Shown here: piece by piece, positions 6,709-54,665 of the stretch | Layout of the letters: each line of letters opens with the position of its first letter | How positions within the stretch are numbered: the stretch's first letter is position 1 | Made by a program: the position numbers and the translations under genes | DNA from: Fibrobacter succinogenes | GTDB taxonomy: Bacteria > Fibrobacterota > Fibrobacteria > Fibrobacterales > Fibrobacteraceae | Assembly (NCBI RefSeq): GCF_902779965.1 | Contig: NZ_CACZDK010000026.1 | Coordinates: 1 to 64,000 of the forward strand | Direction of reading: 5' to 3' | Length of the DNA stretch: 64,000 bases | The notes under the pieces: generated by a model | Databases searched by the model: none | What the model was told of the DNA's origin: nothing | What the model saw: the letters and a program-made list of their open reading frames with translations, nothing else

Positions 6709-8748
6709 ATGGACGATAAACTTGAAAATTTGATAAGAAACAAAATTGCAACAGATAAAAAACTCGCTGCTAAAATAGCGTGTGAAGACTTTTGGCTTGC
6801 CAAAGGGCAAGAAGCCCTCAGAAAATATCAAGCATACTCTATAAATCCAGAGCTTCTAGATAACCTTATTGAAAAATCTTCTACCAGTGAGGGATTCCAA
6901 GAAATCAAGAATTCTCAAGACCCCGCACTTATTGAAATTAGAGAACTGATTTTCTCTATTGTCGCATATTGCGACATGAATGCCTGCGATAAAAAGAAAT
7001 ACAATAAATACGAAGATTACCGTGTCATTGCTAAAGCAGGCATTCGCCAAAACGACTGGTTACATCACTTTCTTACATATAAGAAAACAAGCAATGCTCC
7101 AGATTCTGTAATGAACGCCATTGAATATTTGGATCAACCTGCAACACATTTTGGAAATGTAAGTGAAAAGCATCGTAAACTGATTGCAGAAAAAATTTTC
7201 ATGGTTCCTTACGAAAGAAACTCTTTTTTTGATTCCGCAAAAAAATTCTTTGAACCATTTGATATTAAATGCAATAACTCAGGCAACCTCGGTACAGTTT
7301 TTGGACATATTTTATACGATGGAGAAATATCAAAATATTGGAAAGAAAGTGATCTTTCTCTAGACGATTCTGATACCGTTCGCTACTGGGTTTACTCTCC
7401 TGGTGCAAAAGCAACCAACTGGAATAACGACAAAAAGAATGAAGTTATGTCCATCGGCTACGATAACATTGTTGACTGGAGTACTTTAAAAACTAAAGAA
7501 GAATATCGAACAGCCTTGCAGAATTTCAACCACGACACATCATCTCATAAAAACGATGTTCTCGGTTTTTGGCAATTCGTAAACGAAATGAAAATTGGCG
7601 ATGTTGTTTATGCAAAAGATGGAATGTCAAAAGTTATTGGGCGCGGCATAGTCCAAGGCGATTACACCTACGATGCCAACAAAGATTCCTTTTATTGCAG
7701 TCGAAAAGTGCAATGGACACATACAAATTGCAACTACCAATTGAAAGAGGACGGAGCATTCTCTATGAAGATGCTCACCGACATCACAAAATATTCTGGT
7801 TTAAGAAACGAGCTTGAGGAATTTTTTGATAATCAGAAATCAACGCAAATCGGTGGTAAAACATCTATCGAGCCGAAACCACAAACACCATCCATTTACT
7901 CTAAAGAAAATTTCTTAAAAAAAGTCTTTATGGATGAATCAAGCTATGATTCACTTGTTGGTTTGCTAAAGAGAAAAAAGAATATTATTCTGCAAGGAGC
8001 TCCTGGAGTCGGGAAAACATTCATGGCAAAGCGCCTAGCTTACTCCATAATGGGGCAAATAGATAAATCAAGAGTAAAAATGATTCAATTCCACCAAAGT
8101 TACAGTTATGAAGATTTCATAATGGGCTACCGTCCTGATGGAAATGGATTCAAGCTAAAACGCGGTCCGTTCTATGAATTTTGTAATACAGCGGCAGAGG
8201 ATTCAGAAAACAACTATTTCTTTATCATCGACGAAATAAATCGTGGAAACATCAGCAAGATTTTCGGCGAACTATTCATGCTTATCGAAAACGATAAACG
8301 TGGCCAGCAAATACGTTTGCTATACGAAGATGAATTATTCTCCGTACCTCCCAATTTATACATCATTGGTCTCATGAATACAGCAGACCGCAGCATTGCA
8401 ATGATTGACTATGCTTTACGCCGTCGTTTTTCATTCTTTGAGGTTAAACCGGCATTTGATTCAGAGCAATTTGAAAGCAAGCGTGAAAATGCAGAAAATG
8501 AAAAATACGACAATCTTATTGAATGCGTAAAGAATCTCAATAAGGAAATCGCCGCCGATGATTCTCTTGGTGAAGGATTTTGCATAGGTCACAGCTACTT
8601 TTGCTTCGAAGAAAATGAAACCATTGATAATGAATGGCTCAAGTCGGTTGTTGAATATGATGTCATTCCGCTCCTGAAAGAATATTGGTTTGACGAGCCT
8701 GAAAAAGTAAAGAACTGGAGCGATAAACTCAGAGCATCGATTCAATGA
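6709..8748 (+). CDS. mcrB: McrB-family AAA+ GTPase of a McrBC-type restriction system
   Basis: A 679-residue protein with an N-terminal unassigned helical region, an EVE/YTH-like reader segment at about 295-345 (GDVVYAKDG...GRGIVQGDY...RKVQW), and a C-terminal AAA+ motor. The motor has Walker A GAPGVGKT at 430-437, Walker B FFIIDEINRG around 503-512, and the McrB signature NTADRS at 557-562. In McrBC, this subunit recognises modified DNA through its N-terminus and translocates using GTP, recruiting McrC to cut. The ATG at 6709 follows a GAGAGG site; an upstream TTG has none. The gene overlaps mcrC by four bases (ATGA). It is AT-rich, as expected for a transferred defence module. Confidence 0.9.
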   Translation: MDDKLENLIRNKIATDKKLAAKIACEDFWLAKGQEALRKYQAYSINPELLDNLIEKSSTSEGFQEIKNSQDPALIEIRELIFSIVAYCDMNACDKKKYNKYEDYRVIAKAGIRQNDWLHHFLTYKKTSNAPDSVMNAIEYLDQPATHFGNVSEKHRKLIAEKIFMVPYERNSFFDSAKKFFEPFDIKCNNSGNLGTVFGHILYDGEISKYWKESDLSLDDSDTVRYWVYSPGAKATNWNNDKKNEVMSIGYDNIVDWSTLKTKEEYRTALQNFNHDTSSHKNDVLGFWQFVNEMKIGDVVYAKDGMSKVIGRGIVQGDYTYDANKDSFYCSRKVQWTHTNCNYQLKEDGAFSMKMLTDITKYSGLRNELEEFFDNQKSTQIGGKTSIEPKPQTPSIYSKENFLKKVFMDESSYDSLVGLLKRKKNIILQGAPGVGKTFMAKRLAYSIMGQIDKSRVKMIQFHQSYSYEDFIMGYRPDGNGFKLKRGPFYEFCNTAAEDSENNYFFIIDEINRGNISKIFGELFMLIENDKRGQQIRLLYEDELFSVPPNLYIIGLMNTADRSIAMIDYALRRRFSFFEVKPAFDSEQFESKRENAENEKYDNLIECVKNLNKEIAADDSLGEGFCIGHSYFCFEENETIDNEWLKSVVEYDVIPLLKEYWFDEPEKVKNWSDKLRASIQ

Positions 8749-24450: not shown

Positions 24451-24560
24451 GAGGGGACAACTGTATAAGGCGAGCGTTGCGACAGATTGCTCGCAAGCTG
24501 TCATAACCGAGCCGAACAGTTGAGACTTGAGCGTAGCGAAAGTCTAACGCTTTTCCCCTC
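24451..24560 (+). ncRNA. Structured repeat element, copy A (possible pseudoknotted RNA)
   Basis: GAGGGGA (24451) pairs with TCCCCTC (24554), and CAACTGT (24458) with ACAGTTG (24516). AGACTT and AAGTCT (24523-24545) close a hairpin whose loop reads GAGCGTAGCGA. Inside, GCGAGC (24470) can pair with GCTCGC (24489) and GACAG (24481) with CTGTC (24498), an H-type pseudoknot. Core words GGCGAG, TTGCG and AACCGAG match copies B, C and D. The strand is assumed from the orientation of the shared words; transcription is not shown. Confidence 0.5.
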
Positions 24561-25388: not shown

Positions 25389-25396
25389 TACATTTG
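25389..25396 (+). promoter_or_regulatory. TACATTTG box of valS
   Basis: TACATTTG matches the TAnnTTTG box known from the Bacteroidota promoter type. It ends eight bases before the valS ATG, with no ribosome-binding site between, which suggests a leaderless mRNA. Confidence 0.4.
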
Positions 25397-25404
25397 TGCC
25401 CACT

Positions 25405-28167
25405 ATGGAAATGGAAACACGTTACAACCCGAAAATTGTAGAAGACCGTTGGCACGACCAATGGGAAAAGAATAATGATTTTGCCCCGAGCGGAAAGGGT
25501 GAACCTTTCTCCGTCGTCATTCCGCCCCCGAACGTAACCGGTGCATTGCACCTGGGTCACGCCCTGAACGACACGCTTCAGGATATCCTCGTCCGCTATC
25601 GCCGCAAGACTGGCCGCGACACGCTCTGGATTCCGGGCACGGACCACGCTGGTATCGCCACGCAGGCTGTCGTCGAAAAGAGACTTTTCCAGGACGAGCA
25701 CAAGACCCGCCACGATATCGGCCGCGAAGCTCTCGTCGAACGCATCTGGAAGTGGAAGGACGAATACGAAGCCCGTATTACCAAGCAGTTGAAGAGCCTC
25801 GGTGTGAGCTGCGACTGGAGCCGCCAGCGCTTTACGCTCGACCCGGTTTGCGCAAAGGCTGTCCGCCACGCATTCTTCAACCTTTTCAAGAAGGGTCTTA
25901 TCTACCGCGGTAAGCGTCTCGTGAACTGGGACACCAAGCTCCAGACCGCTGTTGCCGACGATGAAATTTATTACGAAACTGTGAAGGGGCACTTCTGGAC
26001 GTTCAAGTATCCGTTGGCCGACGGTTCGGGCTTTATCCCGGTTTCGACGACGCGTCCGGAAACGATCATGGGCGATACGGCTCTCGCTGTGCACCCGAAC
26101 GACGAACGCTACAAGCAGTTCATCGGCAAGATGCTCAAGGTTCCGTTCGTGAACCGCGAAATTCCGGTGATTGCAGATGCCATTCTCGTGGATATGGAAT
26201 TCGGTACGGGTTCCGTGAAGGTGACTCCGGCTCATGACCCGAACGACTATGCAACGGGCCTCCGCCACAAGCTCCCGATGATCAACATCATGAACGACGA
26301 CGGCAGCCTCAACGAGAACGCCGGTCCGTTCCAGGGCATGAAGGGTCAGGCCGCACGCGACGCTGTGGTGAAGGGTCTCGAAGATCTCGGCCTCCTCATC
26401 AAGGTCGAAGACCACGAAATGCAGGTGGGTCATTCCGACCGTTCCAAGACTGTGATTGAACCGTACTTGAGCGACCAGTGGTTCGTGAAGATGGACGTTC
26501 TCGCCGACAACGCCATGAAGGCTGTCACGAGCGGCGAAATCAAGATTATTCCGGAACGTTATGCGAACAAGTACCTCGACTGGCTCAAGGAAAAGCGCGA
26601 CTGGTGCATCAGCCGTCAGCTCTGGTGGGGCCACCGCATTCCTATTTGGCACGCCGACGAAACGACGACCGAAGAGGACTTGAGCAAGGCATTCGCAGGC
26701 CGTAACGACATTTACTATTACAAGGCACAGAACGGCATCTGGCTCATCTGCTCCGAAGAAGAAAACCTCTCCGAAGACGCTGTTGCCTGTCACAAGATTG
26801 TACAGGAAGAAGACGTGCTTGACACGTGGTTCTCCAGTGGCCTTTGGCCGCACTCCACGATGGGCTGGCCGGAACAGACGGACACGCTCAAGAAGTACTA
26901 TCCGACTTCTGTGCTCGTGACGAGCCGCGACATCATCACGCTCTGGGTCGCCCGCATGGTGCTCTTCAGCCAGGAGAACATGGGCACGGTTCCGTTCCAC
27001 ACGGTGTACATCCACCCGAAGATTTTGGACGGCAATGGCATGACCATGAGCAAGTCCAAGGGCAATGGCGTGGACCCGATGGATATCGAAAAGAAGTACG
27101 GCACGGACGCTCTCCGCTTCGTGATGGCAAGCCTCTGCACCGACAACCAGGACGTTCGTCTCCCGGTGAAGAAGGAAAAGCAGGAAGATGGCTCCGTCAT
27201 CAACACGAGCGAAAAGTTCGAAATTGGTCGTAATTTCTCGAACAAGCTCTGGAACGCTTGCCGCTTCTTGTTCCCGCACTTGGAACAGGCAGGCGCACTT
27301 TCCAAGGAAATGCTCCCGATGGATTCTTCGATCTTCGCACTCGAAGACCGCTGGATTCTCTCTCGCTTGAACTCCACCATCCAGGACGCAACGAAGATGC
27401 TCGAAGAGTTCCACTTTGCTGAACTCGCCGGCTTCCTCTACCGCTTTGTGTGGGACGATGTCTGCTCAAGCTACTTGGAAATCAAGAAGGCCGTGATCAA
27501 CAGCGAAACGCTCACCGCCGAAAAGAAGAACGCTATGGCAATCCTCAGCCACGTGCTCCGCGGCGTGATTGACCTGTTGCATCCGGTGATGCCGTTCATC
27601 ACGGAAGAACTGAACGCAACGCTCTTCCCGGGTTCTGAACGCGTGATCAACAGCGCATGGCCGAAGGCTAACACAAGCCTCATCGACGCCAAGATCGAAG
27701 CCGCTTTCAACCAGGCATTCGCCGTCGTGGAAAGTGTGCGTGGCGTGCGCGGTCGCTACAACGTAAGCCCGGCTACCAAGCTCAAGGCTGTCGTGAGCGT
27801 CGACACCGCCGAAACCGAAGCTAGCGTGAAGGACTGCCAGGCAATCATCACCGAACTCGGTGGACTTGAATCGTTCTCTGTAGCTGTTAAGGCTGCAAAG
27901 CCGAAGTTCAGCGCAAGCTCCGTGGTGCCGGGTGGCGAACTCTACATCCCGCTCGAAGGTATCCTTGACCCGGCTGCAGAAATCGCACGCCTCGAAAAGG
28001 AAATCGAAAAGGCAAAGGCATTCGCCGCTTCTATCGAGAAAAAACTTTCTAACCAAAAGTTTGTCTCAGGAGCACCGGAGGCCGTTGTCAATGCTGAACG
28101 TGTAAAGTTGGCTACTCAGCAGGATATCATCGCCAAAAACGAAGCGGCATTGAAAGAACTAAAGTAG
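25405..28167 (+). CDS. valS: Valyl-tRNA synthetase
   Basis: A 920-residue class I aminoacyl-tRNA synthetase. PPPNVTGALHLGHAL carries the HIGH-type motif, and MTMSKSKGNGVDP the KMSKS motif. An editing (CP1) domain sits between them, and a C-terminal coiled-coil arm ends the protein (EIARLEKEIEKAKAFAASIE). It charges tRNA-Val and clears mischarged threonine. From about 28038 the codon use changes abruptly: Lys AAA, Leu CTT/TTG/CTA, Gly GGA, Ser TCA and Val GTA appear, although the first 2.6 kb rarely use them. The final ~40 codons therefore look like a recoded replacement. The ATG at 25405 is chosen; ATG 25411 or GTG 25396 are possible. Confidence 0.97.
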   Translation: MEMETRYNPKIVEDRWHDQWEKNNDFAPSGKGEPFSVVIPPPNVTGALHLGHALNDTLQDILVRYRRKTGRDTLWIPGTDHAGIATQAVVEKRLFQDEHKTRHDIGREALVERIWKWKDEYEARITKQLKSLGVSCDWSRQRFTLDPVCAKAVRHAFFNLFKKGLIYRGKRLVNWDTKLQTAVADDEIYYETVKGHFWTFKYPLADGSGFIPVSTTRPETIMGDTALAVHPNDERYKQFIGKMLKVPFVNREIPVIADAILVDMEFGTGSVKVTPAHDPNDYATGLRHKLPMINIMNDDGSLNENAGPFQGMKGQAARDAVVKGLEDLGLLIKVEDHEMQVGHSDRSKTVIEPYLSDQWFVKMDVLADNAMKAVTSGEIKIIPERYANKYLDWLKEKRDWCISRQLWWGHRIPIWHADETTTEEDLSKAFAGRNDIYYYKAQNGIWLICSEEENLSEDAVACHKIVQEEDVLDTWFSSGLWPHSTMGWPEQTDTLKKYYPTSVLVTSRDIITLWVARMVLFSQENMGTVPFHTVYIHPKILDGNGMTMSKSKGNGVDPMDIEKKYGTDALRFVMASLCTDNQDVRLPVKKEKQEDGSVINTSEKFEIGRNFSNKLWNACRFLFPHLEQAGALSKEMLPMDSSIFALEDRWILSRLNSTIQDATKMLEEFHFAELAGFLYRFVWDDVCSSYLEIKKAVINSETLTAEKKNAMAILSHVLRGVIDLLHPVMPFITEELNATLFPGSERVINSAWPKANTSLIDAKIEAAFNQAFAVVESVRGVRGRYNVSPATKLKAVVSVDTAETEASVKDCQAIITELGGLESFSVAVKAAKPKFSASSVVPGGELYIPLEGILDPAAEIARLEKEIEKAKAFAASIEKKLSNQKFVSGAPEAVVNAERVKLATQQDIIAKNEAALKELK

Positions 28168-28177
28168 CTCTCCAATG

Positions 28178-28262
28178 ACAAATGCGTAGGGCGAGAGTCG
28201 CGGGCAAATTTATTTGCACATGACCGAGCCCAGCATTTGGTACTTAAGCGAAGCGAAAGTAC
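28178..28262 (+). ncRNA. Structured repeat element, copy B
   Basis: CAAATGC (28179) pairs with GCATTTG (28233). GTACTT and AAGTAC (28240-28262) form a hairpin with loop AAGCGAAGCGA. The core has GGCGAGAGTCGCGGG, a small hairpin GCAAA-TTTA-TTTGC, and CACATGACCGAG. It differs from copy C at four of 86 positions by eye; one T/C and A/G pair keeps the GTACTT/AAGTAC stem intact. It starts about ten bases after the valS stop. Confidence 0.6.
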
Positions 28263-28375
28263 AGAAGTTCGTCAATGGCGCTCCGGAAGCTGTCGTGAAC
28301 GCCGAACGCACCAAGCTCGCTACACAGAGAGAAATTATCGCCAAGGACGAAGCAGCCCTGAAGGATCTGCGATAA
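28262..28375 (+). pseudogene. Displaced copy of the valS C-terminus (remnant 1)
   Basis: This 38-codon stretch reads QKFVNGAPEAVVNAERTKLA, continues TQREIIAKDEAALKDLR, and ends in TAA. It is homologous to the last residues of the live ValS but differs at many silent positions. Its codons (AAG, TTC, CTC, CCG, GAA) match the body of valS better than the live tail does, so it may be the original gene end. No start codon or upstream frame would express it on its own. Confidence 0.85.
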
Positions 28376-28387
28376 TTTCTCAGCAAG

Positions 28388-28473
28388 ACAAATGCGTAGG
28401 GCGAGAGTCGCGGGCAAATTTATTTGCACATGACCGAGGCCAGCATTTGGCACTTGAGCGAAGCGAAAGTGCC
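28388..28473 (+). ncRNA. Structured repeat element, copy C
   Basis: The layout is as in copy B: CAAATGC (28389) pairs with GCATTTG (28443), and GGCACTT with AAGTGCC (28449-28473) around loop GAGCGAAGCGA. The GCACTT/AAGTGC stem shows the compensating changes relative to copy B. It follows remnant 1 by 12 bases and runs straight into remnant 2. Confidence 0.6.
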
Positions 28474-28474
28474 C

Positions 28475-28516
28475 ATCATTGCCAAAAACGAAGCGGCATT
28501 GAAAGAACTGAAGTAG
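28475..28516 (+). pseudogene. Second displaced copy of the valS 3' end (remnant 2)
   Basis: Fourteen codons read IIAKNEAALKELK and stop. They differ from the live valS end at only two silent positions, unlike remnant 1. The copy begins one base after element C. Confidence 0.85.
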
Positions 28517-28527
28517 ATAGCAGTTCA

Positions 28528-28573
28528 CTTCGACTAGGCTCAGTGAACTTGAAGGTCCCTGAGCCTGCCGAAG
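28528..28573. repeat. Inverted repeat of the AGGCTCAG/CTGAGCCT type
   Basis: CTTCG...AGGCTCAG and CTGAGCCT...CGAAG form a long imperfect stem with a 15-base loop. Words of this kind are widespread intergenic repeats in many bacteria and could be a miniature transposable element. Confidence 0.6.
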
Positions 28574-28624
28574 GGCCGTAGAGTATTGCAATCCGTAAGC
28601 ATTGCATTTCATCTTGTGAAACGC

Positions 28625-29499: not shown

Positions 29500-31080
29500 A
29501 TGATAAGAACAAAAAAATTCTCTAAAGCTTCGATTTTGGGCGTAGCCGCTGTGTCAACACTCTTCACAGCATGTGACCTCATCAACGACTTCATCCCCGC
29601 AGATCCCAATCCAGGAGATCCGAAACCACAGATAAGTTCATCAAGCAATGTTGTACCAACACCGGTATCATCATCCAGCGCCATTTTGCCGGACTCTTCT
29701 AACAGCGAGCACTCTGCATTCCAGACTTGGCGCGGAACAGACGGCGATCAGCGTATCATCACAGGTGCAGACAACGGAACCGAAACTTCCGGCTACTGGT
29801 TTAGCTATGCCGATAAAGCTGACGGTGGCGAATCCAAAATCATTTGGCCTGTGGAAATAGGAGATGTATACAGCGATGAATCTCTACAGCCAGTCGTTGA
29901 ACACTGCAATGGTATTTGCGGTACAGCCACCTTAAGAAAGGGTAACTTACCATACCCACCTTTTGTAGGCGTTGGATTCACAATTGCCGGAGAAACAGAA
30001 TTCGGTGAACCCGCTGCCGCTGATGTTTCAAGCATGGGTGGCGTATGCGTATCTTACGCATCCGAAGTTCCTGTAGTTCTCGAAATGAGCTTTACCGATG
30101 ACATTGACGCTAGACTCGGTTACGCCAATCCCATGGTCACTCTTCCCAAAGCCACCTCGGGCATAACAAAGTTCATTCCATGGTCTAACTTCAAGCAACC
30201 TTCTTGGTACACTGGAGCATTTACAATGTCTGGCGACCAAGGAGCAACGCAGCTCGCTCTTTTACGTTTCCGCTTCCAAGCTAATCAGGGTGACTACCGT
30301 TTCAACATTACAGAAGTCGGGAGCTTAGATGGTTGCACGGGCGTTCCAGCATCGCTTGACTTTACTTCCCAAGAAATTCCGCCGATTGATCCGCCAAAGC
30401 CACCAGTTCCGCAACCGAACAACTTTGAAACTTGGTTCGGCACGTCTGGTTCCGCACAAATCATTACCGGATACGACAACGGCACCGAAACCTCCGGCTA
30501 CTGGTTCACCTATAGTGACAATGTTGATGGTGGCATGTCTACAATCATTTGGCCTGTGGAAATAGGCAATGAATACGATCCAGAAGCTAAGGATCCCGTT
30601 ATTGAACACTGCGGCGGTCTTTGCGGAAAAGCAGTCCTCGATCAGGGTTCACTGGTATATCAGCCGTATGTAGCTGTAGGCTTCAATTTGGCAGGAGAAT
30701 CGTATGACGGGGGTAAAGCTGATATAGTTGATGCCTCTGCCATGGGCGGCGTCTGCATCACATACACATCCAGTACACAACCGGTTCTCGAAATGGGCCT
30801 TGGCGAAGAAATGGACGCAGCAATCGGCTATGCCAATCCTGCCATAATACTTCCCAAGAGCATCTCAGGCACAACAAAGTTCATTCCGTGGTCTAGCTTC
30901 AAGCAGCCGTCTTGGTACAGTGGCAAAAAAACGCTTACCGGTGAAGAAGCAGCAAAGAATCTCGCAAATCTCAAATTCAAAATACAGGCACAATCAGGCG
31001 AATACGACTTCAACATTCAAGCAATCGGTCCGTACAACAGCGGAACCTGCGCACCTCAAGTTATCGCTCAGTCAAAATAA
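29500..31080 (+). CDS. Lipoprotein with two tandem copies of a carbohydrate-binding-like domain
   Basis: A 526-residue lipoprotein (lipobox LFTAC), with a Pro/Ser linker (PQISSSSNVVP, SSSSAILPDSS). Two repeats follow, at about residues 70-285 and 310-515. Shared landmarks are DNGTETSGYWF, KIIWPVEIG or TIIWPVEIG, EHC.G.CG, MGGVCV or MGGVCI, GYANP and KFIPWS.FKQPSWY. The GYWFSYAD-type segment recalls CBM11/CBM30-like modules of Fibrobacter cellulases, but the match is by eye. It is probably displayed on the outer membrane and may bind plant polysaccharide. AGGAGGATACTCTG precedes the ATG, and a strong terminator follows. Confidence 0.75.
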   Translation: MIRTKKFSKASILGVAAVSTLFTACDLINDFIPADPNPGDPKPQISSSSNVVPTPVSSSSAILPDSSNSEHSAFQTWRGTDGDQRIITGADNGTETSGYWFSYADKADGGESKIIWPVEIGDVYSDESLQPVVEHCNGICGTATLRKGNLPYPPFVGVGFTIAGETEFGEPAAADVSSMGGVCVSYASEVPVVLEMSFTDDIDARLGYANPMVTLPKATSGITKFIPWSNFKQPSWYTGAFTMSGDQGATQLALLRFRFQANQGDYRFNITEVGSLDGCTGVPASLDFTSQEIPPIDPPKPPVPQPNNFETWFGTSGSAQIITGYDNGTETSGYWFTYSDNVDGGMSTIIWPVEIGNEYDPEAKDPVIEHCGGLCGKAVLDQGSLVYQPYVAVGFNLAGESYDGGKADIVDASAMGGVCITYTSSTQPVLEMGLGEEMDAAIGYANPAIILPKSISGTTKFIPWSSFKQPSWYSGKKTLTGEEAAKNLANLKFKIQAQSGEYDFNIQAIGPYNSGTCAPQVIAQSK

Positions 31081-54504: not shown

Positions 54505-54665
54505 GCGTGCAAAACGAGAGTCGCGGGCGACTGGTTGACGCTTACAGCGTCAGTTCTTCGGCTCACAAATAGAAAACATAATGTTTTCTGCTTGCTTCGC
54601 CTTGTAGACTATGCAGGCGCACATGACCGAGTGAAGCCGCTGACGCCGTAGGCGTCCACTCCGAG
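54505..54665 (+). ncRNA. Structured repeat element, copy D (diverged, longer)
   Basis: It shares ACGAGAGTCGCGGGC (54513) and GCACATGACCGAG (54619) with copies B and C. Added hairpins are GACGCT-TAC-AGCGTC (54537), AGAAAACA-TAA-TGTTTTCT (54571) and GACGCC-GTA-GGCGTC (54642). GCGTCAG (54547) can pair with CTGACGC (54640), enclosing the middle. Transcription is not shown. Confidence 0.5.

Follow-up and report, generated by a model that had tools for sequence, protein, structure and literature searches.

Two near-identical repeats beside valS in Fibrobacter succinogenes belong to a dispersed family of elements of about 85 nt (84–85 nt) with two hairpins, and the evidence as a whole is probably best explained by a non-autonomous mobile element whose fold is recognised in trans and whose copies were involved in recombination at valS. 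The fold of this element is clearly kept by natural selection. The window analysed was a stretch of 64,000 nt (positions 1 to 64,000 of contig NZ_CACZDK010000026.1, forward strand), to which the positions below refer.

Two copies of the element downstream of valS

The open reading frame at 25,396–28,167 (plus strand, 923 aa), which we take to be an intact valS (valyl-tRNA synthetase) from its characteristic ValRS sequence, lies directly upstream of the first of these repeats, copy B. This copy of 84 nt (28,179–28,262, plus strand), delimited by its fold and by its match to the covariance model R1 (28,177–28,264; 106.1 bits, E 1e-24), comprises the helix P1 (28,179–28,185 paired with 28,233–28,239), a CGAG...CGAG core (28,192–28,228) and a terminal hairpin (28,240–28,262), and is immediately preceded by GA at 28,177–28,178. 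It is followed by a displaced and diverged valS 3′ end (type b; 28,263–28,375, plus strand) that ends in TAA and was recognised by nucleotide and tblastn comparison, with 69% identity to the intact 3′ end over 136 nt and 81% over 37 aa in tblastn. Copy C, also of 84 nt (28,389–28,472, plus strand; fold and R1 match at 28,387–28,474, 101 bits, E 2e-23), presents GA at 28,387–28,388 immediately 5′, P1 at 28,389–28,395 and 28,443–28,449, and a terminal hairpin at 28,450–28,472, and behind it lies a second displaced valS 3′ remnant (type c; 28,473–28,516, plus strand), ending in TAG and 95% identical to the intact end over 42 nt. A third clear copy, with P1 CAACTGT/ACAGTTG and a longer inner hairpin, was located at 24,456–24,547 (plus strand; R1 83.6 bits, E 5e-19). 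Moreover, a structural pattern scan revealed a degenerate or variant core with the triplet CAA/TTG on the minus strand (54,562–54,599), which had no R1 match and is followed 3′ by a GACGCTGTAAGCGTC hairpin. Two other repeats were observed in this part of the window: a further palindromic repeat, TTCACTTCGACTAGGCTCAGTGAACTTGAAGGTCCCTGAGCCTGCCGAAGGGCC, at 28,530–28,585, 3′ of the displaced valS end, and a two-fold internal repeat (30,076–30,965) in a lipoprotein-like gene at 29,500–31,080.

A repeat search of the window aligned 28,177–28,260 with 28,387–28,470 at 96% identity. The initial annotation had counted four differences between copies B and C, which were located at 28,229/28,439, 28,241/28,451, 28,246/28,456 and 28,261/28,471, and it had described two of them as mutually compensating. 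Indeed, T 28,241 (C at 28,451) stands opposite A 28,261 (G at 28,471), turning GTACTT/AAGTAC into GCACTT/AAGTGC with pairing intact (U-A to C-G), and the loop of the terminal hairpin, GCGAAGCGA, is the same in both copies, as had been stated. Of the remaining differences, C 28,229 (G at 28,439), which that annotation had not mentioned, faces G 28,191/28,401 in P2, so that this pair is broken in copy C, and A 28,246 (G at 28,456) is unpaired, in the GA of the terminal hairpin. The fold of copy C gave a z score of –3.2 against dinucleotide shuffles. A single compensated pair between two copies is weak proof of selection; the proof is supplied by the family.

Conservation and covariation of the fold

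The plus-strand fold of the element consists of two hairpins in succession, the first of them long and interrupted and composed of P1, P2 and an inner hairpin. The conserved core around the inner hairpin, CGAG.nnnGC / ATnnn'CGAG, consists of CGAG, one base, a triplet, GC, the inner hairpin, AT, the complementary triplet and CGAG. This pattern was matched 247 times in 1.04 Mb of fetched loci, which had been picked for holding the core, so that the count does not represent a genome-wide rate, and it was never matched in mononucleotide shuffles. The triplets of P2b occurred in 14 pairings among the core matches, such as GTC/GAC, GCC/GGC and AAA/TTT.

An alignment of 39 copies (A1) was made with MAFFT and its consensus fold obtained with RNAalifold, which predicted 29 pairs; both partners had changed in 25 of these, compared with a mean of 9.8 in shuffles. 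Standard pairs made up 97.1% of the paired cells in A1, the covariation score was 0.358 against 0.131 in shuffled alignments, and none of 500 shuffles equalled any of these measures; when the partner was slid by one to three columns, pairing fell from 97% to 28–39%. In addition, a tree-aware null was built in imitation of R-scape, in which substitutions were re-placed at random along a FastTree tree. Applied to 105 copies, this test revealed 11 significant pairs, nine of them in the predicted fold and two extending its helices, one by lengthening P2 and the other by a G.A/A.G exchange between two pairs of the inner helix. Only two pairs were significant in 69 ungapped copies with mixed terminal hairpins, because their hairpin columns were not comparable; this was cured in the subset of 51 ungapped copies with a common terminal loop, in which three pairs reached significance and the fold accounted for 15 of the 20 top-scoring pairs. 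The third best of these was the pair 63/83 in element positions, equivalent to the compensated pair 28,451/28,471 in the terminal hairpin of copy C (E 0.03, 8 co-changes on the tree), found as U-A in 31 copies, G-C in nine, C-G in five and A-U in one. Copies sharing a common P1 and terminal hairpin are kin, and the covariation counts are therefore not independent events. Wobble cells in the 105-copy analysis were G-U in 135 cases and A-C in 19, and the plus strand as shown in the window is therefore the strand whose fold is kept.

The selection on structure that the initial annotation had suggested was thus borne out by the A1 statistics, by the tree-aware test, in which covariation was significant and the stems were largely retained, and by the family-wide covariance model R1, which recovered the family across the genus and the taxonomic family. 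That the pairing arose by chance or reflects recent common descent of two copies could be argued from the 96% identity of B and C and from the one difference in four that breaks a pair. This reading is refuted by the A1 and tree-aware tests, pair-type changes extend across many genomes and phyla, and its probability is practically negligible.

Distribution of the family

The element was found at 31 places in the source genome (4.09 Mb, 76 contigs). R1 matches were present in all 61 Fibrobacter genomes searched, with 3–71 in each among up to 72 candidates scored per genome. Of 151 genomes across the phylum, 76 held matches, 67 of them in the genus and nine in four sister genera, whereas genomes outside this family had none. 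In an exact core scan of named GTDB genomes, most of the matches listed came from Fibrobacter records. Fibrobacter sp. RGIG5926 (locus L102) and a same-genus relative (G006, locus L039) carried one and the same copy between the same flanks. Outside the phylum, the core was found in termite-gut MAGs, repeatedly in one labelled Spirochaetes, with 36 R1 matches, and a few times in others labelled Clostridiales (seven) and Oscillospiraceae (three); a Fibrobacterales termite MAG likewise had 36 matches, and one Aeriscardovia MAG gave a lone match that may reflect a binning error. No match to the exact core pattern was obtained in IMG/VR, and a phage or virus carrier was dropped on that ground. The window had no Rfam match, and the element region gave only chance matches up to E 10. 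A literature search covering few subscription papers found no description of the element in Fibrobacter.

Insertion sites

Copies B and C belong to the CAA-type (E-type), whose P1 is CAAATGC or CAACTGC. GA precedes 71 of 94 such copies and is lacking in 23, and this GA may partly be element sequence. Comparison of the junctions shows that E-type copies enter between two A residues, in most cases at GA^A, and leave no clear duplication of the target. At several sites the joined flanks form uninterrupted sequence, as in thrS (GTTGGTGA(el)AAAAGG, with (el) standing for the element), in an intergenic heptad repeat (AGTAGGA(el)AGTAGG), in another intergenic repeat (AGACGA(el)AAGACGAGAG) and in the CRISPR repeats of Fibrobacterales Fibro_02 (locus L060; GTCTTA(el)ATCC). 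In thrS, the site at the FYGPK stretch was occupied at locus L113 and empty at L092. Right-hand junctions varied by one or two A, and duplication amounts to at most one base. A general rule by which X', the 3′ strand of P1, would be an exact complement of the target, with true target duplication, was not retained, since tandem units in which the following copy starts with X (L077, L100, L119, L150) account for part of the pattern; for copies at terminators it may hold.

Two additional observations concern the position of copies. Two copies lay within the CRISPR repeats of L060 at the same position, GTCTTA^ATCC, and at six loci (L059, L072, L106, L114, L116, L137) tRNA-Arg(TCT) genes had copies behind them, set within partial duplications of the 3′ end of the tRNA.

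Copies at gene ends and displaced 3′ ends

Copies were placed by means of a hexamer coding score. Just behind genes, 33 copies (20 independent) were in sense and three in antisense orientation; inside genes, eight (six independent) were in sense and one in antisense. This sense bias could result from selection and not from mechanism. A coding signal was lacking on either side of 98 of the 160 placed copies. The stop codon of the upstream gene often fell between P1 and P2, with P1 using the last codons (L064, L088, L119, L150).

An intact gene accompanied by a displaced older 3′ end was found for valS in the window, for thrS in the source genome and in F. intestinalis, and for carB at locus L135. 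The displaced end lies directly behind the intact gene or 2.8–6 kb from it, and holds further copies of the element. The intact C-terminus of thrS in the source genome was unlike both displaced ends (L192, contig C26, 1814–3109, minus strand), which indicates that an essential gene has had its end exchanged there. Recombination between copies, or the horizontal gain of a gene end together with an element, would explain these displaced ends. In F. intestinalis, the two largest proteins encoded between the intact and the displaced thrS had no Pfam match. For annotation, the duplicated 3′ ends of valS, thrS and carB should not be counted as independent genes. As a separate observation, displaced thrS and valS 3′ pieces (L092, L113, L135, L167) start right after a ATATAGCCCGACC-hairpin-GGGGAACGCCCAA motif, also present near carB in L135, which may mark where a larger island ends.

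Copies inside genes

In the source genome, an SNF2 helicase gene carries an in-frame copy between the domains SNF2-rel_dom and Helicase_C (L030). In-frame copies were also found in the SNF2 helicase gene of other genomes (L057, L062, L124), and four other genomes had a short, empty SNF2 allele at that linker, for example ICNHPATFLKGLDDNAASQKSSKLESGKM. Other in-frame hosts encode UvrB (L027), an FAD-dependent protein (L126), TruB (L178), RlmL-like methyltransferases (L032, L143) and a peptidase-like protein (L189). Such copies lie between or within Pfam domains; to either side of them the frame is open and Pfam domains are recognised, from which the insert is predicted to be translated in the host protein. 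The sense frame GA-C was open in 38 of 56 distinct elements, against about 25% of composition shuffles, and the three antisense frames in 34–47 of 56, against about 36%; the element is therefore poor in stop codons. Some linkers of Fibrobacter proteins would accordingly be element-derived, which matters for the annotation of rumen genomes.

Proposed explanation and alternatives

That the element is mobile and carries a selected fold is considered probable. Copies B and C would be members of a short non-autonomous mobile element whose plus strand folds, and the folded single strand, either RNA or single-stranded DNA, would be recognised by trans-acting mobilisation machinery; we infer that the fold is kept because of this recognition. 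Its members collect in intergenic DNA, behind genes in the sense orientation and in frame within genes, and at valS recombination would have left two displaced 3′ ends, one behind each copy. As a candidate variant, a structured RNA might move by copying its own transcript. An element at a gene 3′ end would then take upstream gene sequence along, and its insertion into the same gene would swap the 3′ end and leave the old end stranded past the element, the arrangement observed at valS and thrS in the source genome, although this variant is judged distinctly unlikely.

The hairpin anatomy, together with insertion beside a short fixed motif without clear target duplication, would also suit a REP-like element moved on single-stranded DNA hairpins by an IS200/IS605-type Y1 (REP-associated) transposase, and Y1_Tnp was indeed present in 20 of the 61 genomes. 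However, it was absent from the source genome and from several of the richest genomes (G006, G052, G059, G065), copy number was nearly equal with and without it (about 35 and 29 per genome), the core was absent from all six Y1 loci examined, and the element itself has no GTAG tag, so that such an origin appears rather unlikely. Being missing from several rich genomes and not linked to the core, the Y1 transposase was not retained as the mobiliser; a reverse transcriptase was likewise rejected as a general mobiliser, with RVT_1 found in 17 of the 61 genomes only. A functional RNA acting in cis, such as an attenuator or a 3′ UTR stabiliser, would account for the sense bias at gene 3′ ends, the conservation of the unpaired core and the many P1 helices that take in the final codons of the upstream gene together with its stop codon. 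It would also fit the tandem units, as in some riboswitches, and the X-core-X'-hairpin-X'' layout beside terminators (L094, L097, L107, L109), where at some terminators X' could pair with X, forming P1, or with X'', an anti-terminator. Against this, the majority of placed copies are without a coding signal on either side, near-identical copies occur in repeat-rich DNA and inside genes, no common downstream gene was seen, and copy number differs widely among congeneric genomes within the candidates scored; a cis-acting role is consequently held to be unlikely as the explanation. Finally, copies in coding pieces of thrS, valS and carB, where a stop directly follows the last codon, could recall a translational bypassing element or a tiny intron removed from the host gene product. 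At thrS and carB this was refuted by intact copies in the same genomes, namely, in F. intestinalis, a thrS of 677 aa at a distance of 6 kb, an intact thrS in the source genome and an intact carB 2.8 kb away in L135; other in-gene copies are simply read through, and the idea is very improbable.

Comparison with known systems

As a kind, the element most closely resembles the Rickettsia palindromic element (RPE). RPEs insert in frame and have no known transposase (PMC10969869, PMC3733652); they are described there as short palindromic repeats found between genes and in frame in unrelated genes, and translated (Ogata et al. 2000 via PMC10969869), and those of R. conorii carry a CGTC tag at one end (PMC3733652). 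The Fibrobacter element is similarly palindromic, is present in many copies between and inside genes, and keeps the host frame open. Unlike RPEs, which are about 150 bp long and found in Rickettsia, it measures 84–85 nt and belongs to another phylum, and it differs by its bipartite fold, conserved internal core, noncanonical G.A/A.G covariation, tandem arrays and P1 pairing with gene ends. In contrast to the CGTC tag, copies B and C start with CAAATGC and end with GTAC or GTGC, although some relatives end with GCGTC. An exact core-pattern scan of 84,980 genomes showed no Rickettsiales among the matches listed. The element is covered by no Rfam family and differs from RPEs in size, fold, end tag and host range. 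To our knowledge, mobile palindromes dwelling in genes have so far been seen as largely a Rickettsia oddity. A strongly covarying family across Fibrobacter, whose core also occurs in gut bacteria that carry other phylum labels, opens comparative and experimental study of how such palindromes move and why their fold is kept.

Like REP/BIME sequences associated with RAYT (PMC3733652, PMC2817692), the element consists of hairpin repeats, present in dozens per genome and often near gene ends, but it is longer, shows internal covariation, has no linkage to a Y1 transposase and lacks GTAG at the hairpin foot, GTAG occurring only before copies in AGTAGGA heptads. It shares with MITEs (PMC10969869) a small size, non-autonomy and dispersal; unlike them, it showed no terminal inverted repeats that correspond to a transposase of the host genome, its GA^A junctions are without target-site duplication, at most one A, and P1, its inverted repeat, encloses the element only in part. 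A hairpin with a complementary segment is also found in palindromes derived from IS200/IS605, as is insertion at a short motif without duplication, whereas P1 and P1' vary here between subfamilies and no Y1 link exists.

Other inserts in the element

The element itself is interrupted in some copies. A second element of about 52 bp (TATACGAAACTCGGCAATTTATTGCCTTAGTTGAGTTATCCTCTGTGGGGA) was observed in the apical loop of the terminal hairpin at four loci (L061, L063, L075, L089), and F. intestinalis carries the same sequence within the loop of a different hairpin (L092, minus strand, near 6860). Similarly, an insert of about 78 bp (AACGCC..GGCGTTCGTGGCTGCGGTTATG...) splits the 3′ strand of P1 at six loci (L022, L069, L073, L079, L083, L110).
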